From positions 124,001 through 188,000 of the forward strand of contig WHVD01000144.1 in assembly GCA_015178975.1 (NCBI GenBank): DNA of 64,000 nt. The letters run 5' to 3'. How positions within the stretch are numbered: position 1 is the first letter of the stretch; every line of letters begins with the position of its first letter. Position numbers and translations under genes: made by a program. The notes under the pieces are model-generated. The model was not told where the DNA came from. It was given only the letters and a program-made list of their open reading frames with translations, and searched no databases. The DNA comes from Hysterangium stoloniferum. Lineage: Eukaryota; Basidiomycota; Agaricomycetes; Hysterangiales; Hysterangiaceae. Below, one piece after another: positions 21,157 to 52,790 of this stretch.

Positions 21157-21333
21157 GATGCAGTTGATTAGGATGTTTGGTCAATGAATTAGGGGGCTAT
21201 GTTGATATTATCTTAGTGCCCAAATATATATGTGAGTTCGGACTTTTAATTTAGCTGAGAGTCAGGCTGGATTTGGGATCTTTTAATTTCCGTTTCTATT
21301 ATGCTCGTGACAACATTGAGTTCAGTGAAGGGC

Positions 21334-22677: not shown

Positions 22678-22740
22678 ATAGATCTTGCCATGAAAGTAAA
22701 GGATGCCCTGTAGCTCTGACCACTCTGCAGTCAGGACTTG

Positions 22741-24300
22741 TCAGGAGTTGCCTTGTTGAAGCTCTCGTGCTGCCTTTGCAACTGTGTCTTCTCGCAATCC
22801 CATTTGCCCTGCTCTACGGATCTTGCGCAGGACATCCTGCTCTTCCCCCACCAGTGTCAGACCCTCCAGGGCTCTGATTCGAAACAGGTCAGGGCGCAAT
22901 AGTATTACATCAGCATTGTCTTCTGATCCTGTACCATGATCTGGTCTCCGTGACAGAGCATCTGGCTTCCCCATTGATTTTCCTGGCTTGTGGAATAAAT
23001 CATATTCAAAGCGAGAGAGGAATAATGACCATCTAGCCTGTCTACGGTTGAGTTTTTGGGCTGACCTGAAGTACTGAAGATTCTGATGATCAGTCCAGAT
23101 CTCTACCTTGTGCTGAGCACCTTCCAAGAAATGGCGCCATTCTTCTAAGGCCCGGATTATGGAAAGGAGTTCTTTGTCATAAATCTCATAGTTCCGTTCC
23201 ACAGCATTCAGACTTTTGGAGTAGAAGGCAACTGGGTGCCACTTCCCATCAGAGTCTGATTGCTGGGACAAGACTGCTCCTGTGGCAAAGTCTGAACTAT
23301 CTGCCTCAATTCGAAATGGTTGATTGTCATTTGGGAGTGTGAGGACTGGAGCAGAGGTCACCCGAGCCTTAATCCCATTAAATGCTTCTTGGGCCTCTGT
23401 GGACCACTTCCAGGCAATATCATTCCCTGTAAGATCAAACAATGGACGTGCAATCTTGGAAAAGTCTTGGATGAATCGACGGTAGAAATTTGCAAAACCC
23501 AAAAATGCCTGTACTTCCTTTTTATTTTTGGGAATGGGCCACTCTGCTACACCTGCTATCTTCACTGGGTCCATCTCCGTACAACCATGGGAGATAATGA
23601 ATTCAATCTTGGTCTTCTCAAACTCACACTTCTCTGGATGTAAGTAAAGTTTATGATGTTGGAGTCATTCCAAGACTAATCGCAGAACTCGGCGATGTTC
23701 TTCTAGAGTCTTGGTATAGATCAGGATGTCATCCAGGTATACACATACCACTCCTTCTCGGATCAGGTCTACAAAGATATCATTCATCATGGTCTGGAAA
23801 GTGGCTGGGCTATTGGTGAGTCCAAAGAACATCACCAGTGGTTTAAACAGTCCCCTATTGGTGCGAAAGGCTGCCTTCCATTCATCACCCTCTTTGATGC
23901 GAATGTTATTGTATCCCCATCGCACATCCAGCTTTGTAAAGTATCGAGCTCCCCTAAGCTGATTCACAAGTTCTGAAATCAATGGAATGGGATAACGGTT
24001 TTTCACTGTGATGGTATTCAACTCCCGATAGTCTTGGACTAACCGCAGAGATCCATCTTTCTTCTTGATGAAAAACACTGGAGAGGCCATTGGGGATTTG
24101 GAGGGGCAGATACACCCAGTTTCTAGATTCTCCTTGAGGAACTCATCCAGCTGCACTTGTTCAGATGGGGACAAGGGGTAGACCTTACAGTTGGTGGCTT
24201 TAGCACCAGGCTCCAGCTCTATGGCATGGTCCCAAATCTTGCGTTCTGGAAGAGTGTCAAAGGACTTCTTTGAGAAGACATCATGGAGAGAATTGTCATC
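22741..24300 (-). pseudogene. Chromovirus 1 reverse transcriptase and RNase H (fossil part)
   Basis: RT landmarks [32 protein letters not shown] and [11 protein letters not shown] (the YxDD active site). Then AFLGFANFYRRFI, RNase H with FRIEADSSDFATGAVLSQQ and ELLSIIRALEEWRHFLEGA. Typical Ty3/Gypsy order. Broken. Confidence 0.85.
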
Positions 24301-26821
24301 TTAACGTGTCTGCTCTTTATGATCCAAATTCATTGGTTATAAATCTCACTTCGGACCCCTTTGGGAGTCTTACTCTTCAAGCCCTCATAGATTCAGGTTC
24401 AACTCATTGTTTCATAGTATAAGTTTTTCCCAAAAACATCAGTTAAAAACCTGTGCAATAGATCCAATTGCACTCTGACTTCAGTTCCCATGTGGAACCT
24501 TTCAGACAGTAATTTTTTTGTAACACAGTTGGACTTGAGCTGTGCTGTGGTTCTAAGACATAACTGGCTCACCCGCTACAATCTGTTGATTGATTGGGTA
24601 TTGGGCAGTATCTATTTCCGAACCCCATCAGGACCCGATATGACTGTTCCATCTCTGCCTGTTTCAGCAAATATGGCCTCTACGGCACCTCTGGCCCCCA
24701 TGGCAAATATGAGTTTTTATTACCACTGATCTCTGATTTACTTGATGCCCCTCAGAAGGCCCAAATCTATACAAAGATAGATCTTGAACACACCTATCAT
24801 TTGGTTCAGATTGCTGAAGGTGACAAGTGGAAAACAGCTTTCCGCACTCACTATGGTTCTTTTGAATGGTTAGTGATGCCTTTCAGCCTCACCAATGCTC
24901 TGTCGGTCTTTCAACATTTTATCAATGACATTTTTTCTGACCTCCTTGGCATCTATGTCATTGTATACTTAGACAACATCCTTATATTTTCTGAAGACCC
25001 TACACTTCATGACAAACACATCCATGAAGTTCTCTGAAGACTCTGAAAACATGGTCTTTTGTGAATGGTAAAAAATGTTCATTTGATGTCAACACGGTTG
25101 AATATTTAGGTTTCATGATGGGATCCGACGGTCTCCGCATGGATGACTCTAAAAGTCAAGTCATTCAAGATTGACCAGAACTGAAAGGTTAAGGACATTC
25201 TGTCCTTTTTAGGCTTTGCCAATTTTTATCATCATTTCATTCACAACTACTCAAAAATTACTGTTCTGCTTACTCATCTTACTTGTAAAGACACCCTGTG
25301 GAATTTCTCTGAGGAATGCCACACAGCATTCCAGGAATTGAAAAGTGCATTTACATCCACCCCTATTTTGTCCACTGGAAGCCCGATGTTCAACTCATTG
25401 TGGAAACTGATGCCTCAGATTATGCACTTGCTGCTGCAATATTGTCCATTCTGGACACTGACAGTGAAGTCCACCCAGTAGCCTTCTTGTCTCACACTTT
25501 CTTGGCACCTGAAATCAGCTACAATGTTCATGACAAGGAACTACTTGTGATATTTGAAGTTTTCAAGACATGGCGACATTATCTGGAAGGATCGGCTCAT
25601 CTGATAGATGTTATAACCAACCACAAGAATTTGGTTTATTTTTCAACCACAAAACTACTCACCCATTGGCAAGCCTGATGGTCTGAATACCTCTCCGCTT
25701 TCAATATGGTCATCTACTTCTGTCCCAGCCAAACCTTGGTGGAAAACCTGACACTATGACTAGATGATGGGATGTCTATCCTAAAGAGGGGAGTAGCGAC
25801 TATGCCACAGTTAATCTGCATAACTTTAAGCCTATGTTTTCATCCAAACAACTGTCCGTGTCTATCCGAGCCACTTACCTCATTCATCCAGCCTTGCAAA
25901 GTGTTATCCTTTTGGACACCAAAAAGTTACATCAAGACATACTATCTGCAATTCCATTAGACCGAGTGGCCAAAGCACACCTTGATAACCCATCCGACCC
26001 TGATCAACCCTGATGGTCACTAGACTCACAGGGTTTCATTAGACTTGATAACCGCATCTATGTACTGGATTCTGACACCCTTCAGCTGTGAATCCTACAA
26101 CATAAGGATGAACACCTGATCTTGGGACATTTCAGCCTCAACAAGACTCTTTCACTCATTAGAAGAGAATATACATGGCCCGGCATCCGAGATTTCACCA
26201 AGCACTACTGCAAATCCTGTACAACCTGTTTACACTCGAAATATGGCCTACCCAAACAGTAACTGATACCAGAAAAACCCTGGAACATGATTTCTATGGA
26301 TTTCATTGAGCACCTACTGGCATCTGAAGGTCATACAGCAATCCTAGTTGTTGTGGATAGGCTCACAATGCAAAGTATTTTCATTCCAACGTATAACATG
26401 ATAACATCTGTACAGTTAGCTGAACTATTCATCACCCATGTATTTTCCAAGCACAGTGTTCCATCACATATCACATCCAATCATGGATCTGAGTTTGTCT
26501 CTCATTTCTTTAGGTCACTCAGAAAAGCACTAGACATGAAATTACACTTCACTTTGGGCTATCACCCGGAAGGTGACAGCCAAACTGAACACATCATTCA
26601 AACCTTGGAACAGTACATTCATGTCTATTGTAACTATCAACAAGATAAATGGAAATCACTACTACTGCTAGCTGAATTCACATATAACAATGCATCAAAT
26701 GCCACTACTGGCATTTCGCCTTTCTTTGCAAACAAAGGCTACAACCCCAATATCGCAATCCACCTGGAACATGATCTCACATCCACCCATGCTCAAGACT
26801 TCATTACAAACCTTGGCGAGC
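24301..26821 (+). mobile_element. Ty3/Gypsy chromovirus fossil 2, 5' portion
   Basis: Plus-strand pol remains: a protease-like segment LIDSGSTHCF (about 24390), RT with [20 protein letters not shown] and [11 protein letters not shown] (24740-25037), RNase H (25316-25678), and integrase with HCNSCTTC-like remains and MDFIEHLLASEGHT to SPFFANKGYNPN (about 26080-26821). Broken in many places with internal losses. The sequence stops at 26821 in the linker after the integrase core and TatD coding sequence begins at the next base. The remaining C-terminal portion of the same kind of element lies inverted at about 40163-41456. Confidence 0.82.
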
Positions 26822-27079
26822 TACACCAAAGCACATCTGGCATCACTACCTCCGGCGTTGAACACGCTATTCTTCCCGCCTGCGAAACGTCCAGAACAGT
26901 TCGTACTTGGACAAGCGGTGAAGGGGCGCAATGAGCCCTGTGCAATTGGGGGAGTTGCTTGGGTCGTCCATGAACTACACAGTGTGCCCTTCGAAAAGGT
27001 GGCAGAGAAAACGTGGAAACCGACTGTGGCATTATTTATATTGGAGGAGTTGAATGAAGATACGAAGGTGGAGTCGTAG
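26822..27079 (+). pseudogene. TatD-family nuclease, C-terminal exon, separated from its gene
   Basis: Encodes YTKAHLASLPPALN, FFPPAKRPEQFVLGQ and VKGRNEPCAIGGVAWVV, the conserved C-terminus of eukaryotic TatD-type metal-dependent 3'-5' DNases, ending EELNEDTKVES and TAG at 27077-27079. The first base follows directly on chromovirus integrase sequence. The N-terminal part is on the other strand at 41457-42650 and stops at STHA, exactly where this piece takes up. The two are best explained as one gene cut by an inversion. Without the rest this exon makes no enzyme; metal ligands in the N-terminal part are absent here. Confidence 0.85.
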
Positions 27080-27099
27080 AGGTTGTGCAGCCTTCCGTA

Positions 27100-27480
27100 A
27101 ATCTTACATATCATAGACAAGAAATGATCCCCCATACGAGATACAAGTCAATTCGATATGAAATGATAGACAGATAGTTTTGATATAAGGATGATTGCCA
27201 GGCCAGCCCCAGCAAATAGCCAGACTTCGGGGTATTGCGATCCAGGCATCTTCCGCGCGTTGTAGTCCCTCCAGTATTTCATACTCTTTCTTCGTATCAC
27301 CATCTAACCGAGCCGCTTTCTCTTCAAGACCTGTAGGCTGCTCTTGAAGAAAGAATTGATGCTACAGCCGTAACCAAACCTCACGATCGTGCACTTTTTC
27401 TGGCGGAATTGTAGTCCAGTCTGTCACATCTTCTTCAGGTATTTCTATCTCTTATAACGGTGAAGGAAAAAACAAGTTGA
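27100..27480 (-). pseudogene. Fragment of an unidentified small membrane-protein gene
   Basis: Coding-like minus-strand sequence: EEDVTDWTTIPPEKVHDREVW (about 27390-27450), QEQPTGLEEKAARLDGDTKKEYE (27290-27360, cited in part), and in another frame YNARKMPGSQYPEVWLF with a hydrophobic stretch GAGLAIILI close to the end (about 27160-27275). One stop and one frame change are seen, so it is a pseudogene or holds an unrecognised intron. A single C-terminal membrane segment is likely. Family not recognised. In the uninverted order it would lie just downstream of TatD. Confidence 0.4.
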
Positions 27481-28530
27481 GCCTTGTGGAGCCAAATAAA
27501 AGTTGGTAATGAGTGGATCTAAGAAGTTGTGATGTAGGAGTGTCGTTGGTTCTTAGTGTGATATCGTGGAGCAACAAGAGGACACATCGTGATCGCAGCG
27601 TCAGCATTAAAGAACTTTCACCAGGGACTTCTCCTACCGAGTGATTGGCATTCAAATACACCAGTATCAGCGTACCAATTTTTTGCGGATTTTAGTGTAT
27701 TATTGGTATTCACGAGTTTGATAGGCATTGCGAAAAATCCTGGACAGCCGATAACGGGAAGCTCTGGCTCCAGGACTTTCTCCCACAGGCTATACCTACA
27801 GCGCGGATCCTGTCGTGCGGTTATGATGCTTATACAGAGTTCTTCTTCTGAATAGACTTTGCAAGACCATGCACAGGATTTCTTCTACACCTTTCGATGT
27901 TCAGCGGCAAGCGGCACTCAGGTTCACTGACTGAAAATCACCGGTATTGGTCTTACCTTGCATTACTAATAATTTTCATTTATTTAGGAATGCCCAATAA
28001 TCTTCATTGTGCACAGCTCAGGGATAGTAAACACGTACAATAGATCGTCTACCGACACATATTTAGGCCTCGAGTAAACGGCCTTCGCCAGAGGAACTCT
28101 CCCCTTCTGTCTCTAATAAGGAATATAATTCTCCATCCAATCTCCTTCATATCCCTGTCGTCAAATATTCAAGTCAGGTACCAAAGCACAAGCTTCAAGG
28201 ACATATCTATATCGGCTTCCTCAAAGGGTAGGGCGCGGAGAAGTGGTAGGAGCCCATCACGTAGCACCGAGTTAGTCGGCACTTGAGCAGTTGGCGATGG
28301 ACTCAACACAGGTGGGAGTTCAACGGCGTGAAAGAAAGTCCAGCGGACATACGTGGTACAGCTATAAGGAATATAGGTCGAAGAGAAGGGGCATCATATT
28401 GGACATCGACTGATAATGTTCGCATAAAGGAATTGCGAAGTGGACTATGCTGGGAGTATTCATAGCACTGTATGCAATATGATATGACCATAATAGCGAC
28501 AACCGCTGTTGATGCAATAAGGGACACATG
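27481..28530 (-). other. Degraded coding-like sequence, unidentified
   Basis: Patches with coding character on the minus strand, such as DPRCRYSLWEKVLEPELPVIG (27740-27810, cited in part) and a frame of 74 codons (28303-28527) with a possible N-terminal membrane segment. No continuous gene model and no family recognised. Confidence 0.25.
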
Positions 28531-29771
28531 AACATATCAGAGTGAAGATGTACTTGATCTCAAATCGGCGTATGGCAGCTCAGCAAGAGACGTTAGCCCA
28601 AAGCACCCGAGCTTGCATATCAAACCTCGTTACTGTGGAGGGCCTCTGAATGCGAGAGAACGGCAGGGATTGTGACAGGGAATGGCTTGGCTTGTGGTCT
28701 TCACCCGTCGCGCCATATGCACCGCGAAAGTGGCCGATGGGATGGTCGGCGAGTATAATGGCCAGGCCTATCTACGATCCAAGGATCCCGCGTCATGACG
28801 GCGGAGTCGGGGACTGTGCATCAGTGGTTTCACACACATCATTATCCTTGTCGTGGTGCGGCGAGTTGTCGGGAGTCGAGATCAGAAAGAACTTCCATAT
28901 CTACAAGGGGAGCCTGCCGTCACCCAACTGACACTAAAAAGAATTGAATCAAACAGGGAGGTCGTGTGGCCCGTTGCGCCAGCCCACGTAAACAGCTTCA
29001 TGTTTAACTGTAATATGTTCATGAAAAACAGGATGTGAGTGATAAACGGGAAACGGTGGAAGGTGACGACAAGGAGGACGCGTCCCAAGCATCTGGGTTA
29101 CCTGTGCCATCACGATCCAATATAAGGGAGGGGTATGATTTAGGTATGGAGTAAGAAGTAAGAGGGACCGGACGGAAGTATGACACGAAGAATTCCAGTT
29201 GTGAGGTAAATGGAGAATCGATCGTGAACTGACCCCATTTCTGACGCGCGAAGCTGCTTCAGCGTGGTCTAGTGGATCCAGTGATGGTCAACATCTCGGC
29301 CAGAACAAATAATGACGACAACCGAGGACTACGCGAATAGTGGAGTTGGGAATAACTTGGAGGGAAGGGAAGAAGTTTGGCTAGCTGATGGCCCTTTAAC
29401 AGTGTTCATATTAGACAACAGATCGAGGCGATTAAGGGAGGTTACTGACTTTAACATGGCCATCCACACTAATACTGATCGTGGCAGCAAGACCATTGTC
29501 AGCAAATAGCACTCGGTGTTCACATTAAATTGCATGCGTTCTTGCGTAAAGTAAGTCAAGGAAAGAAAGACGGTATTATACCTTCACATGGTTTAAGAGA
29601 CACAAGATGGACACATCGTGGGAATTCGTTCATTCGTCGTTGACTTTTGAAATTTGAAGTTACGAAAGGGAGTCATAGGGACCATATCATCACAAACAAA
29701 TGAAAATACAAACCAATGTCCGAATATCTGTGACTTGAGCTCCATATTAATGGTTCGTGTTGATGTACTCA
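28531..29771. other. Gene-poor stretch, nothing recognised
   Basis: Higher GC than the flanking repeats, no long open frame on either strand, no repeat homologous to others in the window. Probably old host sequence. Confidence 0.3.
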
Positions 29772-31092
29772 CACATCAGGAGTTACAACATTTAAGGCGG
29801 CACTAAAATATTATCTAAACCTGTTTACAAAACTTTAAGTCCTAAAATGGATTTGAACTCAGTTATTACTTCAATTTTAGACATGATCTGAACTTGTTGT
29901 TTAGGACACACTTTTACCAGAGTTTTTATTCTAAGTCCAGACAAATGTTTACCCCTTATAGAAACCTCAAGTTTGAACATAGGTTTAAAAATAAAATAAA
30001 ACCCTAAGTTTTGTAATGACCTTAAACTAATTGTGTTATGACCGGAATTCCCACCGGACTCTGGGCACTAACTTATACGCACCTGCGCCCTAGATGCACC
30101 CATTATCAGTTTACCGGAATTCCCACCGGACTCCGTACATCAGCCTTGTCTATGTTCGTCTTTGTTATGTTGTGTTTCAGTAACTGGAAAACCCACCGGA
30201 CTCCATTCTGTCTATGTCCGACCTCGTCCTGCACGTCAGTCACTGGACCCTGCTCAGAAACCCTGTCACCTCTCTAACAGAGCCCCATTCCCATTTTAGT
30301 CAAATGACCTGTCACGATTTGGACTCCGCTCCCACTCCGTTTCCTGTTATGGTTTATGATTTGTCACTATTCGGACTCTGCTCCATTCCATCCCGTTCCT
30401 AACACCAATTTGGTGTTTACTATTCCCGTTTTATGTTTTGCTCATTTCGTTTCATTATTACTGGATTCAGTATGACATTCACTCCACAGTCTATTTAAAC
30501 TGGCAGATGTTGTACATACAATCCAGTCAGAAAATTGGCTTAGATTCCCCCCAGTAATCTAATACATTTTCCACTCTAATCCCTACTTGAATCACACCGC
30601 TCACACTAGTCAGAGCCCACGGGCTCTGGCGCATCTATCTCTCTCACCACTCACGACCTCTTGACCACGACCTCCGACTCATGACCTCTCGACCCACGAT
30701 CTCCTACCTACAACCTCTCGACCACAACCCCCGCCTGGACTCCCCGGGATTCCCGTCCACCTGTCTGAAATTGGACAACACAATCTAGCGAGGGTGCAGC
30801 CTATAAGCTGAAGCCAAGTCCTACTGGATATTCTGTGGGTTTCTCCGGAGACCTGCCCTGTACATATCCTAACAAATTGCCCACTCATCACCCACCCATG
30901 CAGGCAATTAGTTTAAGGTCATTACAAAACTTAGGTTTTATTTTATTTTTAAACCTATGTTCAAACTTGAGGTTTCTATAAGGGGTAAACATTTGTCTGG
31001 ACTTAGAATAAAAACTCTGGTAAAAGTGTGTCCTAAACAACAAGTTCAGATCATGTCTAAAATTGAAGTAAAATGTTGTAACTCCTGATGTG
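29772..31092. mobile_element. Fold-back (MITE-like) element split by a solo LTR
   Basis: Ends CACATCAGG and CCTGATGTG are flanked by TCA on both sides (29769-29771 and 31093-31095). The arms (to about 30024 and from about 30912) are inverted copies over more than 180 bp, with about 90 extra bases in the left arm. The LTR at 30034-30874 sits near the centre. No coding capacity. The CAC-starting ends and 3-bp duplication fit CACTA-like or Harbinger-like non-autonomous elements; not decided. Confidence 0.75.
30034..30874 (+). mobile_element. Solo LTR, family A/B (copy B2)
   Basis: 841 bp, TGTTATGACCGG to CCTAACA, with perfect 5-bp duplication AATTG (30029-30033 and 30875-30879). It is inserted in the loop of the fold-back element. 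TA-rich promoter-like segment CTATTTAAAC near 30491; shared core motif at 30788-30821. Confidence 0.9.
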
Positions 31093-31359
31093 TCAGATGC
31101 CAGCCGCGATTAATGTTTACCCAAGGTTTCCAGAAATATGAAATGTATGTAATTGTGGAATGGCTTTAGTATTGTTGCATCTGCTTGAATAAATTCTGCA
31201 TTTCAGGAATTATTAATTATGTATTAAAACTTGTAAACCAAGCAGCTGTTTCTCGAAAGTAGCTACACATTAGCCCATGCACCTATACCAGCAAGCCATG
31301 TTTGATATGATTATCATTCACTGCACATAAACAATTAAAAATACCATTGTCCTACTAGG

Positions 31360-31575
31360 CCAGGTCATACTGGGGCTGAACGATCTCTGCTTCCACCGGT
31401 AAAAGAAACTCGGTAAACCAATATGACCGTAAGTAGTCTTTGATATCCAGTTTATCCGCTAAGAGTGATTCTGGTGGATAGGGGGATGTATTAAAAGTCA
31501 TTAGCCATCGAGCGTCAGATGTGCTCCCCTTGCGTGCTGTTGAGTTGTCATCACATCCCGGTTTGCATTTGAAAG
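31360..31575 (-). other. Exon-like open segment, unidentified
   Basis: Minus-strand frame with coding character: DARWLMTFNTSPYPPESLL and DYLRSYWFTEFLLPVEAEIV, ending at a TAG near 31360. No family recognised; probably the last exon of an old gene or pseudogene. Confidence 0.3.
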
Positions 31576-31640
31576 AAATAAGTCAGTTAGCAGCCTCATT
31601 TTTTACTTACATTTTTTTGCATATTTGTATATTCTTACAG

Positions 31641-31888
31641 TCATTCTACCATAACATTTGATGTTTCGTCCAGTCACTTGATTGAACCTGTCTTGCGCGA
31701 GGCCCGAGTATTACCCTCACATCTTCAAAAGTACTGGGCATTCAGTTCAGTCTGCCCTTATGAGATATATTTAGAGTTCTCTGGGTGGTATCGACAACAT
31801 ATTGGTATGCCAGATACTTCCTCTCATGAACAATTATACAGACAGCTTCACCAGCTTGGAACTATTAGGTATAACGAGTATTGCAGAA
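31641..31888 (+). other. Exon-like open segment, unidentified
   Basis: Frame with coding character (LREARVLPSHLQKYWAF, VCPYEIYLEFSGWYRQH). It is preceded by a good acceptor (ATTCTTACAG) and followed by a GTAAGT donor at 31889, so it looks like an internal exon. The neighbours needed to build a gene were not found. Function unknown. Confidence 0.35.
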
Positions 31889-31949
31889 GTAAGTGCTTGT
31901 ATGAAAAAGGTGAGACAAAATGTCTCAAGAAGACACAATGAGTTATGAT

Positions 31950-32681
31950 GTTCAATCTCCTCTCAAATGTACTATTATATACGCGTAGTATAGTTAGTGA
32001 ATCTCTCAGTGAACGTTTAACTGCTGAGAGTAAGTGATATGTCTATTGCCTCATCATGAAGCAAAACTTATCATATGTATTTAGTACTTAAACGTCTTTA
32101 GGTATTGTATAATATAGCGAACCTTTAACCGCTGAGATACTTAAATGTCTTTAGGAACCAATTCACTAGATATGTTACAACTTCATCTATTTTTCCTTGA
32201 TTTCTATTCGAGGTTTGTGTTTCATCCTTCTGTTAAGGTTAAGTTCTCGGTGCAGACTAGACTTAACAATGAGTGATATTCGCGTTTGTCAAAGCTCTGT
32301 CAAACATGTAAGGAAAACTAGCTACACGACTCGACTAATATATAATGAACCAGCTGATTAAGCTTTTTAGTAGCTTCTAGCGCTTGCAATACTTTAACAC
32401 TTTCTTCCCATCCTAGGTTAATTTTGCTGTCATTTGTCTGGGATCCCAATTTTCACCATCATGCGACTGTCCGTATTGGCGACACATTGAAAACTTAGAA
32501 AACTTCCATAAAGAGCTACGTCATCATTACAGGTGATTTTTTTTTCTTTTGATGCCTATAAAATCAGCATCTTTATCATACCAAATTATTATTGTGTGAC
32601 AACAAGTCTGTGTGACAGATTGTTAGCCGCCATCGATCAACGCTCTTGCAACCACAGCGTACTCTTTGATACTCGTTAAAC
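31950..32681. other. Upstream region of the NLR gene
   Basis: No exon recognised. A short repeated phrase (GAACSTTTAACYGCTGAGA) occurs at about 32011 and 32118. The part next to 32682 is the likely 5' flank and leader of the NLR gene. Confidence 0.3.
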
Positions 32682-32726
32682 ATGTCTACCATCCTCTCAC
32701 CTTCCACAAATATCATACCCCCTGAT

Positions 32727-33781
32727 TGTTAAGTTCCCGAACAAAGCTCCACAGATAGTCCCACGGAGGTTTCCGGTAACTATTCCGAACACACACTTGC
32801 TTCCGGGAATAGTCCCACGGAGTCCCCGGGCAATAGGTCCCGGGAAAGTTCCGGGGATTATTAGTACAAGGAATGGTGATATCAGAATAATTACCAGAAA
32901 GTCTGGTGAGCGACTGAGATGGACTTGGCTTCAGCTTATAGGCTGTGCCCTCGTACACTCATTCAGGTGTCCATATTTCGAGCTGACAGAATGCATACAG
33001 GAAGATATAGATTCCGGAGTTCCCGTGGGAGTTCCGGGAATCGAGTGTGCAGACAGACAAGAGGACTAGAGACTGTTCAAGGATCAAACTTGTTCGGGGG
33101 AAAACTAGTTCGAGATTGAAACTGGATTCTAAGTACATGAACATAGCAGACTTATATAGACTGTGAAATGTAATAATACCAAATCCGGTATTAATGAGAG
33201 GCAGAACTATTAAACATAAAACAAAACAGGTAAATACTAAACTGGGAATTAGGGATGGAACGGAACGGGAGCGGAGAACGAATCATGACAGATCATTTAA
33301 CCATAACTGGAGCGGGGCTCAGTTAGAGGGGTTCCGGAAGTCCGGTCGGAGTCCGGTGACTTGGTGCACAGGATAGTGTCGGGTATAGACAGGCTTGATG
33401 TGCAGGAGGTCCGGTGGAGTCCGGTGGGTTTTCCAATGACTGGTGTGTGAGACGCAGAGACAGATAACAGGAGCGGGGTTCTATGCTCTGTTAGAGGGGG
33501 TTCCAGGAGTCCGGTCGGAGTCCGGTGACTGGTACATAAGACACAGAGTGTCGGGTGTACATAGAGTGGAGTCCGGAGTCCGGTGGAGTCCGAGGACTGG
33601 TGTATGAGACACAGAGGGTTAGGTGCAGACAGGTGGGGTGCGTACAGAGAGTCAGGCATAAACGAGTTGATGTACAGGGTCCCGTGGGAACTCCGGTTGT
33701 TACTATACAATATAGAGGGTCAGGAGCATGTAGGATGGGGTCCGGGGGCCCGGAGGCCGGCGGGTTTTCCGGTTCCTGACA
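32727..33781 (-). mobile_element. Solo LTR, family A/B (copy A3), in exon 1 of the NLR gene
   Basis: 1055 bp, TGTTAAGTTC to CCTGACA on the plus strand, with a perfect 5-bp duplication CTGAT (32722-32726 and 33782-33786). Removing it restores the exon between IIPPD and GSNF of the host gene. CpG sites are better kept than in A1 and A2, so it is the youngest of the three. It contains an internal duplication of the GTTAGAGGGG region (about 33322 and 33491). Confidence 0.9.
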
Positions 33782-36651
33782 CTGATGGATCCAACTTCGG
33801 GGTGAAAGTGCTCGTATCCGGGGGGACTCTCCTACCGTCGAGTAAGTCAGTTGATTAAAAACTAACGAGGGAATCCTCACATGTTCCATGTTCTACTTCT
33901 AGCATTGTTACCATTCACGGCCTGGACGGGCATCGTGAGGCATCCTTCACGGCCACAGTATTCTCTGGCTTCGTGATCTATTACCGGATACCCTTCCCAA
34001 TGTGAGGATTCTGACCTACGGCTATGATGCACGCACTCCTGGCGTGAATCGTTCCAACCAAGCTCTCTATTACTTATCCATTGACTTCATCACTAAATTG
34101 TCTAGTTTCAGAGTGTATACAAATACAGATGTATGTTATTGGCCTTGAGCAAATGAAGGGGTCTCGATGATTGATTTTTTTTTAGGCAAGGCCACTGATC
34201 TTCATCGCCCATAGTTTCGGGGGCATAATGCTGAAAAAAGTATGTCAAAGTCTTCGATAACCCACTCCCCGAAACCTTATTCTCGGATTTTTAAGGCTCT
34301 TATACATGCAAATGCGACCCATATTAAACACCTACCTGCCCACAAAGCTGTTGAAGTGTCCACCTATGGTATCATTTACTTGGGGACACCTCACCAAGGG
34401 ATTGATCTTACCGACTGGACGTGATCACTTTTGAGATCCTTTTCAATTACTTCTCAGGCCAATGGCCCAATTATGAAACACTTGGGGTTGCATTCTGAAA
34501 CGTTACAACAACTGATGGCTGAATACACTGTCATCAGTGGCAGATTTCAAACTGTCTTTTGCTATGAGACTTATGATACTCTGGGACTGGGTGCAACAGG
34601 TGTAAGTAGTTTTCTAAATTTCCTGAAGTCCTTTTAATATTTTTAATCAAATCATTCAAGCATGTCCCTGTCATCTCTGCTGTTGTCCAGGGGTCTGTTA
34701 ATACTGAGGTCATTGCAATCCACAAGGATCACTTGGGACTGGCCCATTTTTCCTCAGTATTTGACAATGAATATAGTATTCTTACTCAGCACCTTCTACT
34801 AATGGCCAGGCAGGCACCAGCTGTTATTCTCAAACATTGGGAAATACACAGTCTGACTTTGTGCAAAGGCTATCAGTGGTCCAACAACCCTGGTATGATG
34901 ATTTATATCTCAGCAAGTATGATGAATTAAATAAATCTTCAGAGACCAAGGAACTCCGTCTAGATATTTATAAATGGTTATCTGCGCCAGATCCATCAAG
35001 TCATTTAAATGCTGCAAAAGAGCAGTGCATGGCAAACACAGGGTCTTGGTTTATCAATGGTGCACAGTTCACAAAATGGAAGGAAGGTATTAACCAATGT
35101 CTCTGGATCTATGGTTGCTGTATGTTTAATTACTTTTGTGGGTTGCTCCTACTTTAATATTCAATTATAGCAGGATCTGGTAAAACAATTTTATGGTGAT
35201 TTTATATCTTTATCTCCAAAAGAAACACATTAGCTGAAAATTGGCTCTTAACTGTAGTTCATCAATCATTGGCAACATTCAAAACCTCTGTGATAATCAC
35301 CCATTACAAGCTGTAGTGTACTTTTTTTTTTATTCTAGAGACTCACAACAGGCCTTTCAATCACATCACAACTTAGTCAAATCTCTCATAAAGCAACTGA
35401 TCTCAGTCTGCTTTGATCTTCCAAACTGTGTAGTTCAGATCTATAAAAATGGCATCCAACAACCATCGCTCATGGATCTTGAAAAAACACTTTGTAATTT
35501 GCTTGCCCTGTTCAATCAGGTTTATATAATTTTGGATGCACTTGATGAATGCTCAGGATATCTGAGAGTACTCAAATGGCTGAAAGAGTTACTTGTTCAA
35601 AGTGGCTTGAAACTGCATATTCTAGTGACAACTCGGCCTCAAGAGTCTATTTGAAGGGAGTTAGATATTATGGGTTCGGAGTACTTGTCACTGCATGAGC
35701 AGCATGCCAATGATGATATTGCTTTCTATATTCAGACTACATTAAAGACACAAACTTTATTTTCATCAATGGATCAAAGTCTTCATCAGAATATTTTTGG
35801 AACACTCAATGATTTGGCAGAAGGCATGTAAGTGACATATTTATTTTCATTTTCTGTAACATTCTAATATTGACATTCAAACTTTGTTTCAGGTTCAGAT
35901 GGGTAGCCTTGCAACTTGAGGAGCTCTCTACCTGCTATAGTGATGGGGACCTAGAAGGCCAGCTGGGAAGACTGCCTGCCACTCTAGATGAAACATACAG
36001 CAGGATAATAGAGAAGATTCCCAAGAGACTGCAAGAAGATGCCTTAAGATTCTTAGACTGGCTGGCCTTTTCTTTTGAGCCCTTGACAAGCAGAGAGTTG
36101 GTTCAAATAATAGGAATAAATATGGATTATAAGATTGGTGGTACAACTTCTCCCTTTAATTCCCAAAATGTATATCGTGATCCAAATGACATTCTCAGTG
36201 TCTGCAGTGGTCTTGTTCTTCACTTAGGAGGTGGGTATTATAAGATGTGTAATGATTAGAAGAATGTGATATAAATTAACCCTTAGATAAAATCAAATTA
36301 GCACATTTTTCAGTGAAGGAGTATCTAATGGATAGTTCCATTATAGGAAGATATTCAAGTATTCACCTTGAAGTGCAATTATCACACAGTCACATAGCTA
36401 AGGTGTTTAATCTATTTGCTGCAGTTTCAGGACCTTTTGACTCCATCTACAAGAAATGAACAGAATATTGAAGAGGATCATCACTTGACAAGATACAGTG
36501 GCACTTGGTGGATTGCACATACAAAGTTGGTGGAAGTGATTCATTGAAAAATCATCATACTTTGATAATGAAGGTTTTTGAAGAGAGAAGCCAGCAATTT
36601 GAACTTTGGAGGAAAATTTGGATTGATAGTGAGTGGAAGGAAGGAAGGTAG

Positions 36652-37525
36652 TTGGCACCAACAATGATACCATTAGGTCTAGCCACATACAATGGCTTTT
36701 GTGATGTGACCACAGCTTTGCTAGGAAGTGGTGCTGATCCCAACATCCAGATCCAGGGAGGTCACTATGACACAGCACTTGTAGCAGCAGCATCTGGGAG
36801 TCACATAGAAGTAGTCCAGGCCCTCCTTACCCATGGTGCTGATCCCAATGCCCAGGGAAGTCATTATGGTACAGCACTTGAAACAGCTGCATACTGGGGC
36901 CACATAGAAATAGTCTGGGCCCTCCTTGCCCATGGTGCTGATCCCAATGTCCAGGGAGGGCATTATGGCACAGCACTTGCAGCAGCAGCATCTGGGAGTC
37001 ACATGGAAGTGATCCAGGCCCTCCTTGCCCATAATGCTGATCCCAATGTTCAGAGAGGTCATTATGGCACAGCACTTACAGTAGCATCATACAAGGGTGA
37101 CATGGAAGTGGTCCAGGCCCTCCTTGCCCATGGTGCTGATCCCAATGTCCAGGAAGGTCATTATGGCACACCACTAGCAGCAGCAGCATCTGGAAGTCAC
37201 ATGGAGGTGGTCCAGGCTCTTCTTGCCCATGGTGCTGATCCAAATATCCAGATATATCATTATGGCACAACACTTGCAGCAGCATCATACAAGGATCAGA
37301 CGCAAGTCGTCCAGGTCCTCCTTGTCCATGGTGCTGATCCCAATTTCCAGGCAGGTCATTATGGCACAGCACTTGCAGCAGCAGCATCTGGGAATCACAA
37401 GGAAGTGGTCCAGGCACTCCTTACCCATGGTGCTGATCCCAATGTCCAGGCAGATCATTATGGCACAGCACTTGCAGCAGCAGCATCTGGGAATCACATG
37501 GAAGTGGTCCAGGCCCTCCTTAGCC
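36652..37525 (+). repeat. Ankyrin repeat array with near-identical 99-bp units
   Basis: About nine ankyrin repeats of 33 residues with the consensus HYGTALAAAASGSHMEVVQ followed by ALLAHGADPNVQ. Neighbouring units are very similar at DNA level, so the array is likely homogenised by unequal exchange, as known for fungal NLR repeat domains. Large minus-strand frames here are shadows of the repeats. The array is cut by a family C LTR fragment. Confidence 0.88.
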
Positions 37526-37796
37526 ATCGTTCAAGTTATCGCTCAAGTTATCGCATTGGAAACTGTTGGTCTCCTGATGCTGACATATGCTTTCGTGGTG
37601 ATCAAACTCCATTTATGCCCCATCAAAATATACTTGTACTATCTGGTTAAACTCTGATACGTCCCTTTTTTATGATGATCCATTCTACTCCTATGTTTCA
37701 CATATGTCTATATATACTTGTAACCCTCAGACTATTTCCTTCCGATTGGTCCCATCAGCCTACCAACATTAGTCAGTTTTCAGTTCTTAACAAAGG
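37526..37796 (+). mobile_element. LTR fragment, family C (copy C3)
   Basis: About 270 bp matching the middle of copies C1 and C2 (landmarks GATGCTGACATATGC, GTGATCAAACTCC, GATGATCCATTCTA) and ending TTCTTAACA like C1. The first 100 bp and a central part are missing. It begins directly in the ankyrin array and closes the NLR frame. Confidence 0.7.
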
Positions 37797-38401
37797 TGGC
37801 AACACCATCGGAGTCCAATGATGAAGAGGGCAGGGAGGATGAGGAGGAGGTGCCAGGGCCTTTGAGCTTTAAAGTATATTCAGACTTCTATTATCTAGTT
37901 TTTTCCTAATTTTTTTCAGTTATAGAAACCAAAATAGGCCTCCAAGGTGGGGCCTGAAAACAATCCAAAGTGCAATTGATGCACTACCCAAGGTCAGACT
38001 TGCCATCCACAGGCCAATGGTCAGGGCCGCACATGCCAAGAGTGTACCCATCAAAAACTTGGTTGCATTTTCCTGGATACCAATGGGAACAGGCCCTATC
38101 AAGAGCAGCAGGCAGACACATTGGAGGAGCAAAATTGACTCCTACACACATACTTCTTGGAAACAAGTCAGTTCCGACACGTACAACTGTGACAACAAGT
38201 GCTGTTTACTGAACAACTGTGATTATTGGGCTTGGGGGTGGAGAAACAGACCAGCATCATAGAGTATATCAGAGGACAACTGGAACAGTATTTAGAAGTG
38301 TCAAGTCCTGAAGAAGCTGGGCCAGGGTTTGAGACATCAGAGAAGGGAGGTGAGAAGGAGGTGTTAATGGCCATCAGTGTAGGGGAAAACTCGGAGGCCG
38401 G
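37797..38401 (+). other. Coding-like remnant, unidentified
   Basis: Frames with coding character: ESNDEEGREDEEEVPGP (37815-37865), followed by a possible intron ending TTTTTTTCAG, then RPPRWGLKTIQSAIDALPKV and later VIIGLGVEKQTSIIEYI. Continuity is broken by stops. Could be the true 3' part of the NLR gene or an unrelated gene or element gag; not resolved. Confidence 0.25.
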
Positions 38402-39640
38402 TGTGAGGTATCAGCATTATCTCGTAAGGTTCTCTTAATTTGCTTTGAATTAATTAATATTTTCTCAAATTTATTGTATTTTTATTATATTTCTATTGTG
38501 AAATATAAGGCCTAGTTCCTTTTAACTTTGCATAATAATAGCATATATGAGCTCATATAATGCTATTATATCTTGGTTAATTTATTATAATTTTTAACTA
38601 ATTATTTATATTTTATTTACTTAGTTATTGCTTTTCGGCACATTGCTTGCTCCAATGTGCACATTTTTGGAGTCATGTGACTTATTAGATAAGCCTCCGA
38701 CTCGGGATATCATACAGTCACGAATGTGACTGTAACAACATACTCGAGTCATTATTTGATTCCACTGACTCAGCAATTGCTTCCATCCCGGGACCACGGC
38801 CTTGAACCTTCATGTTCAAGCAAAAGGTTGGAATCCTTGTCTCAGAGAGGGAGTCATAAGATAAATAAAGGGTAAAAAATAAGTAGAATATGAGGTCATT
38901 ATGACCTAAATAATGACCTCATAAAATAAATAAATAGTTAATTATTTAGTTATCAAAATGTATATAAGGAGGGCCAAGTTTCCAATAAAATCAATCTTAT
39001 CATACATATTTTACTGCACCAGCATTGAGCTTATCCCTTCATCCTAAGGACAAATATAGCCTTAGTCTGATATACTTACTGCAAGCACCTACACTTGCAT
39101 ATTCTGGAATTCTTTGTCATCTCTCTTGAACTTAGCTTCACAACAACTCTTAGGCTTATTAAATCCTTAATGAATCTAAGAAGACTCTTACTGAAATCCC
39201 TGCCAACACTTGGATTATTCAAGGCCCATCCCTTAAGCTAGTGAATTAATCAAGTACAAGCACACAAGAAAATCCGACATAAATTATCTTCTCTATTAAT
39301 AAATTATTTAACTCTTTGGTAAATATCTATTAATAGTTACAAATAAGCATACAAGAATATGAAGCTTTATATCAAGTCTCTGCTAAGTTACTGCACATAT
39401 ACTCAGCTTCTAGCCCCTATTCTCAAGGAATAGTTGTTTATTTGCTAAAAGAGTTACATATTGTTCTTTTGAACCTTTCAATAATTAAAATAAACATTGA
39501 TTTGAGTTGTTTAAGCTTAATAGCACAGCTCAATAATCTATCAGTATTTAAATTACTGGACCTTTGCTTATTTTATTGTTGAAGCTCTGTAACACTAGCA
39601 TATATTGGGCTATCTGAGAGAAACCCCTAAATACATTATA
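38402..39640 (+). mobile_element. Solo LTR, family E (copy E2)
   Basis: 1239 bp starting TGTGAGGTATC and ending ACATTATA, matching E1 at both ends. Flanks GCCGG and GCCAG form a 5-bp duplication with one mismatch. TATA-like TATATAAG at 38961. Confidence 0.8.
38961..38968 (+). promoter_or_regulatory. TATA-box-like site in LTR E2
   Basis: TATATAAG followed by GAGGGCC, in the same context as 6448-6455 in LTR E1. Confidence 0.4.
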
Positions 39641-39663
39641 GCCAGGGAAGAAGGGGAGGTCAG

Positions 39664-40157
39664 TGTCACGAATGTACAAGCTCAAATTTCGATAATATTC
39701 AATTTAATATTTCTTCAACATTTCTTCGACATTCATTTGACATTCCGACTCAATTTCCGACTCGACTTCCGACTCAACTATTCTTCGACAATATCTTCGA
39801 CAATCTCGAATATCTTCGACTTGTCTCAGGTTGATGTCATTGATGATTTCACTTTGATATCATATTATCATCATAGGTAAATGATATATAGTATGTATAT
39901 AAGGGCAATGATAGGAACGAAGGAAGTCAGTCAGAAAACCTGTATTATATTATATTATTACTGTATTATATAATCGCCGAACTTTTCTGAGTCCTTCTTT
40001 GACTTAATTATTCGTGAGCCTCTGTGTCCTATCTTTGCCTCACACTTTATCAACAGGACGAATTAATACTTCATCAAATGAGGCATCTTTATTCAATATT
40101 GTTGAATATTCTTCAATTGTTTATTCGACTTTATTGAGTAAAATTCGATTCGTGACA
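39664..40157 (+). mobile_element. Solo LTR, family D
   Basis: 494 bp with strong inverted ends TGTCACGAAT and ATTCGTGACA and a perfect 5-bp duplication GTCAG (39659-39663 and 40158-40162). Carries TTCCGACTC repeats (about 39744-39775) and a TATATAAG-like site near 39895. Orientation is not certain because the ends are symmetrical. Confidence 0.88.
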
Positions 40158-40308
40158 GTCAGAGAGGAGACTTTAGATAATTGAATATAATGGTTTTAAA
40201 CAAAACAAACAAAACAAAAAATGAAAACATAAGACATAGTTGGAAACAGGGGTCAGATACCACATGAAAATCTATGGAGAACCTAAGGGACCGGGCTTGT
40301 TTGGGTAT

Positions 40309-40934
40309 TGTTAAGTACCGTGTCGGAACTTATTCTGGAACTATCAGAAAGTCACCGGGAAGTCGGAAACTATTAGATAGGGTCAGGACGTCGGCTTCAG
40401 CTTATGTGCTGCACCTCTACGCAAACGCTCAATGTCCTTAATTTCGGAGGTGAGACTTATGAAGGAAGATACAGATATTCAGAGTTCCGAAGAGTTCCGA
40501 ATATCGAGCGTACAGAAAGACGGGAGAAGGAATAAGAAACTAAGTCGATATCAGATCTAAGGTAAAGTACAAATTTGCGGAAACTAATATAAGTCTTCTC
40601 GTTATTGTACTACAAACTAAGACCATAATAAGACGGAAACGGAAATAATCTTAAAACGGAAATACAATAAGACATATTGGGGACACAATATTCCGTAACG
40701 GGAATATAATAAACAAACGAGTGAATACTTGTCAACGGACAATTACCAAATGCAGAACAAGGGAAGAATGCGAATGATACGGTAACTATGATGTTCTGTA
40801 GTCAGAGATCGGAAGTCAGAAGTGGGAGATCGGAAGTCAGAAGTGGGAGATCGGAAGTCAGAAGTGGGAGATTGGAAGTCAGAAGTGGGAGATCGGAAGT
40901 CAAATATTGAAACATCTGGGAACGGGTCGTCACA
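40309..40934 (-). mobile_element. Solo LTR inside chromovirus 2
   Basis: 626 bp, TGTTAAGTACCG to GTCGTCACA on the plus strand, with a perfect 5-bp duplication GGTAT (40304-40308 and 40935-40939). Contains the shared core motif (minus strand, about 40385-40421) and a 21-bp minisatellite (40801-40905). Confidence 0.88.
40801..40905 (-). repeat. 21-bp minisatellite within a solo LTR
   Basis: Five near-identical tandem units of AGATCGGAAGTCAGAAGTGG plus one base. The open frame reading through it is an artefact of the repeat. Confidence 0.85.
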
Positions 40935-41456
40935 GGTATGCTTGATGAAAACCTAAAACAATTTCTGACACATTGCCAAGCTCTGTGGCTAGGATCCATG
41001 AAGTTTCTTCATCTGTACCTTCATAACCAGTCCATTTGACCAAATAAAGTAACTTGCATGAGCATTGGTGATTGTCAATCTTGGAGTCTAGGATTTCTGA
41101 TATCTCAAATTCAGGTTCTCCATCAATAATCACTGGTGGTGGTGGTTGTATGCAATCCAGTGTAGTGTTAGCAACATGTGGTTCTAACATAGATACATAC
41201 ATGAAATACTGGGTGCACTGCACGCATGTTGTCAGGAAGCCGAGAGTCCATGAAAATGTGCTGGCTTGTGCTATAACTTCAAAAGGACCTAAATATTTTT
41301 CAAAGATCTTTTTGGAAGGTCTAGTGGTTTGGAAACACTCAGCTTTAATGAATACTCAGTCTCTGATCTTGAAGTCAGGAGGTGGAAGTTGATTCTTATT
41401 TGCAGACCATTGGTATCATTCTTGGGCCATTGCAATAGTTTTTTGAAGTTCTTGAA

Positions 41457-42650
41457 GGCGTGAGTTGAAGTGAGTGTGCACCATGGTGCATCTATTCTTC
41501 GATGATGTGAATTTATGTACCTATGAAACGGGGGATGTCACTTGCCGGTTTCTAGCATCAATCTGTCTGGATGAATTGCTTTGACGACGTCAAGATTTTC
41601 CTTCGTTTTCATTGAGCAACCATTCACTCTGCAGGTAGTAATGCAAGCCTTATTAGAACCTTAGTCTTTGTTTTTGAAAAATAATTTTCTCACGATACAT
41701 GAAAGCCCATCGCCATCTGACATTCAGAGAAAGTCGACGGTAAAATATCGTGGGTGTTAATACTGTCAGAGTGGCGACTTACCACTTCCTCAAGTTCAGA
41801 GACCGAGCCTGTAAATGAGTGGACAACACCTCCATTTGCACCTACTTTCCGGCCACCGTCATCACCGAATCCCTCTTCTTTAAGAATCTTGACGAAATCA
41901 TCGTGAGCTGCTCGAGAATGCAAAAATAATGGGAGGCGATATTTCTTGGCTAGAGATAATTGCACTCCTACAGTTCACAATATTCAATCAAACCGTTTGA
42001 TAAATGGCCATGAAGTACGCACGAAAATACTTCTGTTGAGTTTCAGGTGGCGCAAATGTGTTCGGTCATAATCTTGAAACTTCACGGTTAGCTCCAACAT
42101 ATGAATGATTGAATAGACGTCGACAGACCGAGACCACACTCCCCCACGGCAACTACCCGACCAACGCCCTTGAGGTTTTGAGAAATGAGTTGGTCAAGGG
42201 CAGCGAGATAGGCATCGGGCCCAGCGCGGAATTTTTCAAAATCGGATGATCTAGTTGGGTGGCATCCAACAGTAGCGTATACCTCTTTGATTATTAACGG
42301 CATAAGCTAATTGCTTATTTGAGTATAATAAGAGCAGATGTATTTACTTAGTTGTTTAGCGAGTCTGAGTGCTTCACTCGATTCGTGGAGACTTCCGCCG
42401 GTAATAATCATGCTCTTCACTCCTGCGGCCTCAGAGCGTTTCATGACCTCAGCTAAGTCATCTGAAAATTATTATTATTAATTCGCTAGTTTTCCAGTTA
42501 TATTTACGCATTTTTCAAACCGTCGTGCTTGCGATTACCGCGGTAAATACCCCGGAAAATTGGATCGGTGAGATTGACTATAAAATAAATTCTGACAGAT
42601 AAAGACGATTACCATGAGCGCCGAGTGCAGGGAATAACTTACCAGCAATA
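41457..42650 (-). pseudogene. TatD-family nuclease, N-terminal and central exons
   Basis: Metal-dependent DNase of the TatD amidohydrolase-like family. Minus-strand exons in order: NLTDPIFRGIYRGNRKHDG (about 42530), EVMKRSEAAGVKSMIITGGS (42345-42463), [10 protein letters not shown] and VVAVGECGL (42133-42285), the APPETQQKYF exon (about 42020-42055), LPLFLHSRAAHDDF and GVVHSFTGSVSELEE (41785-41970), MAMGFHVS, VNGCSMKTKENLDVV and RLMLET (about 41553-41718), then DAPWC and STHA (41457-41491). Metal-site histidines (HPT, LHSR, VHSF) and LETDAPWC are present. Introns are GT-AG; one begins GCAAGT. One T seems to be missing before the APPETQQKYF exon, a frame break. The sequence stops after STHA and chromovirus DNA follows; the C-terminus is at 26822-27079. 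Confidence 0.85.
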
Positions 42651-43160
42651 TCTAGTCACGAATAGCTGAAATAATCGGAACATGAGACAATCAGTATAGA
42701 TCATACCAATGAAGCTCAATTTTGCCACTGCTTCCGCGGCAGATCTGGCTGCGGCAGCTGGATTTGGAGCTATGACAATTGGCATTCAAAGAATCAAACA
42801 AGTAATAATAAAAGCCGTGAAAGGAGGAGTCGAAGGCAGTGCTTGTAAGTTGACTAAAAAGGTTATAGCTTATATAAGCCAAATAATTGGGATCAGGCTC
42901 GGAAGCAGTGATTCGAATTCAGGTCAATCACAGCTGCGGTGTTAGGATTATGGGAAAGTCGGACCAGTCCAAGGATACAAGTGCTGATACACCGACAATC
43001 TCCCTCTATGTTACCTCCGCACCAACGGAGTAGTTCGAGTAGCAACTTGAAGTAATCTACCGATTATGCATGCGAAACCGAATATTATATACCCCTTATA
43101 CACCATTTATAAGGTATATCATATATGGAGGATGTCTAAGCCTTACCCTAGATGTAATTT
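42651..43160. other. Intergenic stretch, no firm gene
   Basis: An alanine-rich plus-strand frame (42709-42945, MKLNFATASAADLAAAAG) is the only long frame. It has no supporting homology I can name and may be chance. The first exon of TatD should lie near 42640-42700 but its start was not resolved. Confidence 0.3.
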
Positions 43161-43190
43161 ACCTCTTTAGCAACTTCCGATTCTCATAAG

Positions 43191-43575
43191 GTGCTGGAGT
43201 GAGCTTTCGACAAAATTAGAACAGAAGCAAGAAAACTTCAATGACCTCAAAATCATGAATTCGCAATGGAGAATGGATGTTTTAATCGCTGCTGCGTACC
43301 TTTGTCCTATACCTCAATGCAATTCCAAGTCCCCTAATGGAGTCCCAGCCTTCCTGACACAGAAGGCATTTTACAAACATATCAATTACCACATTACTAG
43401 AACTAAAGCTCAACCCACTCCCACTCACTCTCCGGATGTTATGCTGGAGGAAGGGAAGACCGATATGATGTCCCTGGCTGACACGTACTTTTCTGACCAT
43501 CCCTTTTGGCGGCCGGAAGAGGTTGCCATCTTTCCTGATAGGGACCAAAAACTTGTTTGGTTGTTTCATCAGTAG
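43191..43575 (+). CDS. C2H2 zinc-finger relative (fourth family member), 3' part
   Basis: Frame open from about 43173 to the stop at 43573-43575. From MNSQWRMDVLIAAAYLCP it aligns with INSTSRRDILLAAVYTCP of the three proteins at 52.8-59.9 kb. It keeps the second finger-like unit (CPIPQC, then KHINYH) and the C-terminal block FWRPEEVAIFPDRDQKLVWLFHQ (cited in part), with the same LVW-Q ending. The first C2H2 finger is missing, so it is either a diverged paralog with an unread upstream exon or a fragment. It stands next to TatD, outside the triplicated segment. Confidence 0.55.
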
Positions 43576-43897
43576 AATCCTCTGTCTGTGTGCGTGGTTT
43601 GCCGTAGATATGGATGTGACTTGCGTGAAGAGGTCCTTTTATCTAAGTATGTTACAGTATGGGCACGAGCACACGCATGTGATATGACCGTCTACTATAT
43701 CTGGGAGACCACAGTTGACAAACAGTAGCCAACATGTATAAAAATGTTTGCTTCTTTGATGACACTTACTATCCGTCCTGCGGTCCTTCAAGAACCCCAA
43801 ATGATTCCTCTCACTATTGAACCCTAGATACAAATAGTAATCGGGTGTGTATTGTTAGATGTTAAACCATGACAACCAAAGCTTGGACCATAGATCC
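43576..43897. other. Intergenic stretch, nothing recognised
   Basis: 3' flank of the zinc-finger relative. No exon or repeat recognised. Confidence 0.3.
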
Positions 43898-52780: not shown

Positions 52781-52790
52781 ATGGCGCCAC

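Follow-up and report, generated by a model that had tools for sequence, protein, structure and literature searches.

The window analyzed here, a 64,000-nucleotide stretch of Hysterangium stoloniferum contig WHVD01000144.1, very probably carries a real balanced two-break inversion, in which a 14,630-bp block was reversed between a TatD gene and a chromovirus. At C399:375.9-396 kb of the same assembly, the uninverted TatD-NLR order is kept at 93 to 98% identity, which makes a genuine inversion of end-joining type, balanced and with two breaks, the most likely reading. Moreover, a second sister copy at C399:565-609 kb carries a separate, independent balanced rearrangement with three breaks. The features of the window are as follows.

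24288..26825, plus strand: left part of an apparently old chromovirus (RT, RNase H, and integrase to mid-domain), identified by Pfam and cut at 26825
26826..41455, no strand: inverted block (14,630 bp), delimited by comparing the junctions with contiguous TatD and chromovirus copies
26826..27079, plus strand: coding sequence for the TatD C-terminus, from behind STHA in the last exon to the stop codon, with homology to C399 running on to 28686
33782..37529, plus strand: NLR gene region (NPHP3_N/NACHT and an ankyrin array with a 99-nt period), from Pfam and repeat analysis, with its 3' end cut at 37530
37530..37792, plus strand: retroelement fragment abutting the ankyrin array of the NLR, in the orientation opposite to the one it normally has next to the chromovirus
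37793..41455, minus strand: right-hand portion of the chromovirus listed first (from the end of its integrase), cut at 41455 and containing a 1.25-kb repeat at ~38396-39642
41456..43194, minus strand: TatD N-terminal exons and upstream sequence, from comparison with the C399 copies, with one base deleted in a short exon
43195..45603, no strand: flank outside the inversion, matching C399:375920-378290 (93 to 100%) and C12:14327-16755 (97%)

Junctions of the inverted block

At the left junction (26825/26826), the last base of plus-strand chromovirus sequence is 26825 and the first of the TatD C-terminus is 26826. At the right junction (41455/41456), minus-strand chromovirus sequence occupies the positions through 41455, followed from 41456 by the TatD N-terminus. 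The initial annotation had placed these junctions at 26821/26822 and 41456/41457, positions that were off by 4 and 1 bases, respectively, and both junctions proved real. Its central proposal, that flipping the block rejoins both TatD parts and both chromovirus parts without loss or gain, holds exactly at the revised positions; judged against contiguous copies at both junctions, the exchange was reciprocal, with 0 bases lost, gained, or duplicated. Homology at the cut was 0 bp, with CAA common to both sequences one base to the right, so the earlier statement that at most 1 bp was shared is fair. Each base at both junctions was present once, and the inverted duplication of breakpoint sequence that would mark a staggered break was absent.

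The four ends at the two junctions pair as two once-contiguous sequences, as seen for TatD in 3/3 and for the chromovirus in 19/19 copies. Such agreement of two sequences on the same breakpoints had been considered hard to obtain by chance, and we would put it, as an estimate rather than a computed value, at the order of 1 in a million if the junctions were unrelated. Two independent rearrangements or insertions that happened to hit this one pair of sequences, with two TatD copies as possible sources, would be in keeping with the other rearrangements of this locus (the 37530 junction) and with the two TatD halves differing in their most similar C399 copy; nevertheless, where each sequence stops at one junction it continues at the other with the adjacent base, no base being missing or repeated, and neither a target-site duplication nor an element end was seen, which leaves this explanation exceedingly improbable. 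A retroelement insertion into TatD was likewise rejected, given the absence of an element end or target-site duplication and the resumption of both halves in the other junction.

Both cuts fall inside coding sequence, one in TatD and the other in the integrase of the chromovirus pol. TatD was split after STHA, as originally claimed, within its last exon. Uninterrupted TatD was seen in all three other copies found in the assembly (C399:384214-386421, C399:610359-612586, and C399:525518-526734), two of which were open where examined. The last exon alone (L029:4766-5098) gave no Pfam match at E 0.01 and was named TatD because it is contiguous with the N-terminal exons in those three copies. The window pieces differed by 1.7 to 2.6% from the two close copies and by 14 to 17% from the third: the N side by 2.6% from C399_1 and 1.7% from C399_2, and the C side by 2.3% and 2.5%, respectively. 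Columns 250-750 of the C side were nearer C399_1, against the N-side trend toward C399_2, a mosaic that could have come from gene conversion or from another source copy. The initial annotation had named intact TatD flanks in relatives failing to match these pieces as a sign against inversion; instead, each of two intact copies matches both pieces, at 95 to 98%. The window TatD also carries its own one-base deletion (frameshift) in a short exon, which may have arisen either before or after the inversion.

The chromovirus was contiguous across the break in 19/19 distinct copies fetched, 18 by matches to both flanks and 1 (L026) by reading, in which one flank matched and the sequence reads through the break for ~60 bases; with ~40 candidates scored per search, the family has at least 19 copies, and more exist. 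The left part, bounded on its left side (24288) where a younger element ends, contained Pfam RVT_1 and RT_RNaseH above the cut-off and rve below it (27.3 versus 32.6 bits). The nearest fetched copy was 92.7% identical over 26500-26829, and the divergence of the window element from the closest copies fetched was 7.3% for the left flank and 10.6% for the right. Considering this divergence, the spread of pol over several short ORFs, and the divergence of only 1.7 to 2.6% in TatD, the element was probably old when it was cut, and it looks broken as well. A transposase- or integrase-driven (alternative-transposition) inversion would fit the retroelement on one side of each breakpoint and the chromovirus at two junctions of the C399 event. 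However, the cuts lie inside pol (integrase and RT) rather than at element termini, target-site duplications were absent from the junctions in both the window and C399, and the division of pol into short ORFs indicates a probably inactive element, so that we regard such a mechanism as extremely unlikely.

Ectopic homologous recombination between inverted repeats might also have flipped the block, considering that the region is full of repeats with inverted pairs nearby (38402-39081 with 46766-47490). Yet none of the eight inverted pairs detected (at least 40 nt, seed 14, 18-48 kb of the window) spans 26825 and 41455, inverted homologous repeats at both breakpoints were not found in this search, and the breakpoints join chromovirus to TatD with only CAA as identity beside the cut; such recombination is thus hardly credible here. 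An assembly error, with the block flipped or mis-joined by the assembler, was the main concern for a repeat-rich region with near-identical sister copies. Misjoins normally fall in long shared repeats. In this case, the sequences that meet are unrelated, share 0 bp at the cut, and form two base-exact reciprocal joins; moreover, TatD and the chromovirus differ from even the best fetched copies by the percentages given above and so were not borrowed from those, and the window TatD has a deletion of its own. Assembly error is therefore very unlikely. Altogether, the inversion explains both junctions exactly and finds its uninverted order on C399 of the same assembly, in support of the earlier interpretation.

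The uninverted counterpart and the NLR gene

The comparison with C399 concerns a sister locus or possible haplotype of the same assembly, not a second strain. A sister locus is favored by the sequence comparison, with a retained haplotype as a possible alternative. PF00562 was found at 3 loci in the assembly, as expected for three RNA polymerases if it is haploid or collapsed, a count based on one family only. The outer flank resembled C12 (97% identity) more than C399 (93% along most of the flank), and ~6 kb of C399 between this flank and TatD was not colinear with the window. The chromovirus side was not conserved on C399, so the uninverted neighborhood on that side was deduced from the chromovirus itself.

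The NLR gene placed inside the block by the initial annotation is present, with NPHP3_N/NACHT and ankyrin repeats, and ORF 35870-36259 of this region gave no Pfam match at E 0.01. Copies occur at C399:565569 (97%), C399:390327 (95%), and C399:495986 (89%). The window gene lacks its 3' end, a loss not noted in the initial annotation, being broken at 37530, and joins at 37530 and 37792/37793 connect it to the reversed retroelement fragment, indicating that one event cannot account for the whole locus. The 3' tail of this copy was absent among the matches: beyond the repeat array, a tail query hit C399_1 (itself) and C399_2, and weakly a stretch of C399_3, among the best 40 of 1032 candidates. 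A partner of the 37530 break was not found among the same best 40 of 1032, and a balanced exchange at this junction is thus unsupported.

A three-break rearrangement in the second sister copy

In the second sister copy, the NLR gene, a chromovirus (in RT), and a third repeat, A, were each cut once, and the ends were rejoined with new partners at three junctions.

C399:565,569: A_L to NLR3' junction
C399:608,574-608,578: NLR5' to chromovirus junction, with a 3-bp filler
C399:604,366/604,367: chromo_L to A_R junction, predicted from the other two junctions and then found

A simple two-break inversion (565.6-608.6 kb) was rejected, as the two TE ends were not contiguous in the copies read (4 copies of A; chromovirus L051 and L050), and it followed that the missing chromovirus half and the missing A half must be joined. 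All six ends of the three sequences were recovered in new joins, forming a closed chain, with 0 to 1 bp of homology, a 3-bp filler, and at most 1 to 2 bp lost. These junctions suggest that, probably in a single end-joining event, a 38.8-kb segment was inverted and shifted to the other side of a 4.2-kb one; alternatively, there may have been two inversions that shared a breakpoint at exactly the same base.

Proposed mechanism and comparison with known systems

In the window, the breaks would have occurred in the integrase gene of the old chromovirus and in the last TatD exon, presumably as two double-strand breaks present at once. The 14.6-kb piece between them would then have been sealed back in the opposite orientation, without loss, gain, or duplication of a single base, which left TatD in two parts. 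Judged from junction form only, sealing was likely by nonhomologous end joining (NHEJ), and the integration machinery of the element itself probably took no part. The characteristics of NHEJ (0 to 4 bp of homology and little or no loss or filler) were seen in both the window and the three-break copy. Considering the inversion together with a separate three-break event in a near-identical copy, this immune-receptor region may break and rejoin repeatedly. A bolder and rather doubtful extension is that the TatD-NLR loci constitute a breakage hotspot, where clustered double-strand breaks in chromovirus pol and the adjoining host gene would be end-joined into balanced local rearrangements, as in a small natural chromoplexy, with sister copies reshuffled independently.

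An NLR with NACHT and internally similar ankyrin repeats, as in the window, is described in a study of fungal NLR repertoires as a recognized fungal architecture, and that study treats repeat variation and domain architecture, with the stem "rearrange" occurring 0 times in the main text (PMC4986451). For Fusarium graminearum, a study of structural variants reports that inversions overlap repeat content and that some breakpoints lie in coding sequences (PMC11152077); that study counts variants over eight isolates, whereas the present analysis gives base-level junctions at one NLR locus in one genome. Among the titles listed in a literature search, none dealt with balanced end-joining rearrangements at fungal NLR loci. 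The window provides a base-resolved inversion of end-joining type in which a gene next to an NLR receptor was split, the unbroken arrangement being preserved elsewhere in the same genome; the independent three-break case in a sister copy adds to it. Should rearrangements of this sort prove frequent at fungal NLR loci, repair of double-strand breaks would be a route for remodeling receptor clusters, beside repeat shuffling and homologous recombination, and this role can be checked by assembling several strains from long reads.

Cut-and-paste inversions, balanced events with two breaks closed by end joining, are a known kind of rearrangement. The window inversion resembles them in its reciprocal junctions, absence of homology at the cut, absence of duplication, and gene broken at one breakpoint; nothing differs in kind, and intact copies elsewhere in this genome allow both sides to be verified. 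Chromoplexy, a balanced multi-break rearrangement, is known from cancer genomics. The three-break copy is similar to it in that each of three sequences was severed at one point and the ends were linked into a closed chain, hardly any bases being lost, but it is local (43 kb), fungal, and possibly the product of two inversions reusing one breakpoint. Both events are of kinds already known; what is of interest is that they recur in sister copies of a single NLR locus.

Junctions of the inverted block and the uninverted order

The 111.1-Mb, 554-contig assembly containing the window was searched, with ∼40 candidates scored per search, and the repeat-copy counts given here are lower bounds. When 901 bases spanning the first junction served as query, the matches fell into two sets: the query's TatD C-terminus part, from base 327/328, matched three places on another contig, C399 (98, 95, and 83%), and its chromovirus part, up to approximately base 330, matched many places. 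Across the second junction, a 2-kb query gave the same two-set pattern, with chromovirus matches up to approximately base 356 and TatD N-terminus matches starting at base 353. Alignment of fetched loci revealed that the TatD halves abut in all three other copies found in the same assembly, settling in the affirmative the question raised by the initial annotation of whether TatD is contiguous elsewhere. The chromovirus halves abutted in 18 of 19 distinct fetched copies; in the 19th (locus L026), one side was matched in the alignment, yet ∼60 bases read through the break site.

Apart from small differences between copies, the break reads ..GAGCTACA^TCAAGAACTTC.. in the chromovirus and ..CTCACGCCT^[A/C]CAAAGCACATC.. 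in TatD, while the window reads ..GAGCTACA^CCAAAGCACATC.. at 26825/26826 and, on the opposite strand, ..CTCACGCCT^TCAAGAACTTC.. at 41455/41456. In each product, the T/C difference lies to the right of the exchange point; therefore, the exchange neither removed nor added nor duplicated a base, and it did not need the CAA that both sequences have one base from the cut, although this CAA may have helped. Both cuts were inside coding sequence, no element termini or target-site duplications were detected at the window junctions, and none of eight inverted pairs (≥40 nt) spanned both breakpoints. Two double-strand breaks closed by end joining would be the simplest account of the inversion.

In one direction, C399 carries the outer flank 45603-43195 (93% over most of its length), ∼6 kb without colinearity to the window, TatD 43194-41456, the segment 26826-33954 (matched with insertions and deletions), and the NLR gene 33955-37525 (95%, with a longer ankyrin array on C399). 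Because C399 keeps the uninverted order, this comparison identifies the block between the junctions as the segment flipped in the window. The ankyrin arrays of the sister NLR genes at C399:393.3-396.4 and 568.4-572.3 kb both exceed that of the window copy in length. An insertion with 138-bp perfectly complementary inverted ends occupies window positions 29866-31071, the C399 sister locus matching nothing between 29771 and 31093, and further insertions separate the window from C399.

Sister loci, TatD copies, and age of the chromovirus

The RNA polymerase model identified three loci in the assembly, one core family that looks single-copy. Considering this and the mosaic similarity of C51 (the contig on which the window occupies 124001-188000) to C399 and C12, these are likelier to be sister loci than alleles, with a leftover haplotype being possible. 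The chromovirus flanks at the first and second junctions reached at best 92.7% and 89.4% to any fetched copy, and its pol was spread over several short open reading frames (ORFs), versus a difference of 1.7 to 2.6% between the window TatD and two close sister copies; on these grounds, the chromovirus was probably already old when it was cut. A young chromodomain retroelement (window 20106-24287, minus strand), 98 to 99% identical to several copies elsewhere, adjoins this older element.

In translated TatD segments, delimited by eye from open stretches rather than by a gene finder, the two close C399 copies (C399_1 and C399_2) were open, and the more distant C399_3 contained stops. In the window TatD, one base is deleted from a short exon, and the last exon carries several replacements without counterpart in C399_1 and C399_2; C399_2 has some replacements of its own. 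The last exon alone gave no Pfam match; thus, its assignment to TatD relies on its being contiguous with the N-terminal exons. Since the Pfam TatD model had further matches on C549 and C511, the cell may be unaffected by the loss of the window copy. Along the gene, the similarity pattern among the three close copies (C51 and C399) switches, suggesting that sister loci have undergone gene conversion.

A three-break rearrangement on C399 and a third disturbance

The closest copy of the window NLR (97%) runs from C399:565,569 onward, and the first 173 bases of homology are missing there. These bases were found 43 kb off on the other strand (C399:608,757-608,584), flanking a TatD copy on its NLR side. 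The NLR 5' piece passes through a 3-base filler into a chromovirus, at a point inside its reverse transcriptase, and the 3' piece abuts an internal part of another repeat, labelled A. Copies at C399:390 kb, C399:496 kb, C537, and C12 keep the NLR uninterrupted across this site, as does the window, which has 4 bases fewer there. A two-break inversion was ruled out for the C399 copy, given that A and the chromovirus are not neighbors in the copies read. Under a three-break account, the other halves of the chromovirus and of A must adjoin each other. Searching with the continuation of A led to C399:604,367, where the match begins at the expected base and is preceded by the missing chromovirus half.

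Junctions of the three-break rearrangement
C399:565569, 604366/604367, and 608574-608578 (loci L039, L054, and L030): balanced; sister NLR-TatD copy

The third junction (C399:604366/604367) reads ..CCGAATTGCCG/GCCAATGGCC.., where the intact chromovirus reads ..GAATTGCCG^AGGGCGATG.. (both of two copies) and intact A reads ..CAGCAATAA^AGCCAATGG.. or close variants (four of four distinct copies). All six ends were thereby recovered, with 0 to 1 bp of homology, 3 bp of filler, and a loss of ≤1 to 2 bp. We infer an earlier order in which the 4.2-kb segment 604,367-608,574 stood ahead of a reversed 38.8-kb segment, 565,570-604,366. A single three-break event would suffice to explain this, and two inversions would do so as well, with one breakpoint reused to the base. 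Judging from the sequences, the C399 event is independent of that in the window, because the window NLR is uncut at the C399 site and the TatD beside the C399 copy is uncut at the window site.

The window NLR is also disturbed at its 3' end, where the ankyrin array breaks off at 37530 and gives way to a retroelement fragment of 263 bases (37530-37792). This fragment and the next piece (37793 on) lie on the same strand in the window and on opposite strands at C49, C442, C201, C84, C516, and C9. Among the matches scored, the NLR tail beyond the array was matched only by C399_1, C399_2, and weakly C399_3, so the window copy seems to have lost it. Two or three disturbed loci, all encountered by tracing a single family and without a control set, are too few to establish a breakage hotspot. 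Window positions 49600-64000 and locus L033 hold an array of repeated units in both orientations (up to 2.3 kb, ∼85 to 97% alike), in which one ORF matches Sir2 and another weakly matches a C2H2 zinc finger, below the cutoff.

Comparison with known fungal inversions and NLRs

One published study describes fungal inversions that overlap repeats and have breakpoints in coding sequence (PMC11152077), and another describes a fungal NLR architecture in which NACHT is combined with ankyrin repeats of high internal similarity (PMC4986451). The window inversion resembles the former in its repeat overlap and coding-sequence breakpoint, and the window NLR resembles the latter in combining NACHT with ankyrin repeats. 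Because both are known in fungi, the window inversion belongs to an already known type of event.
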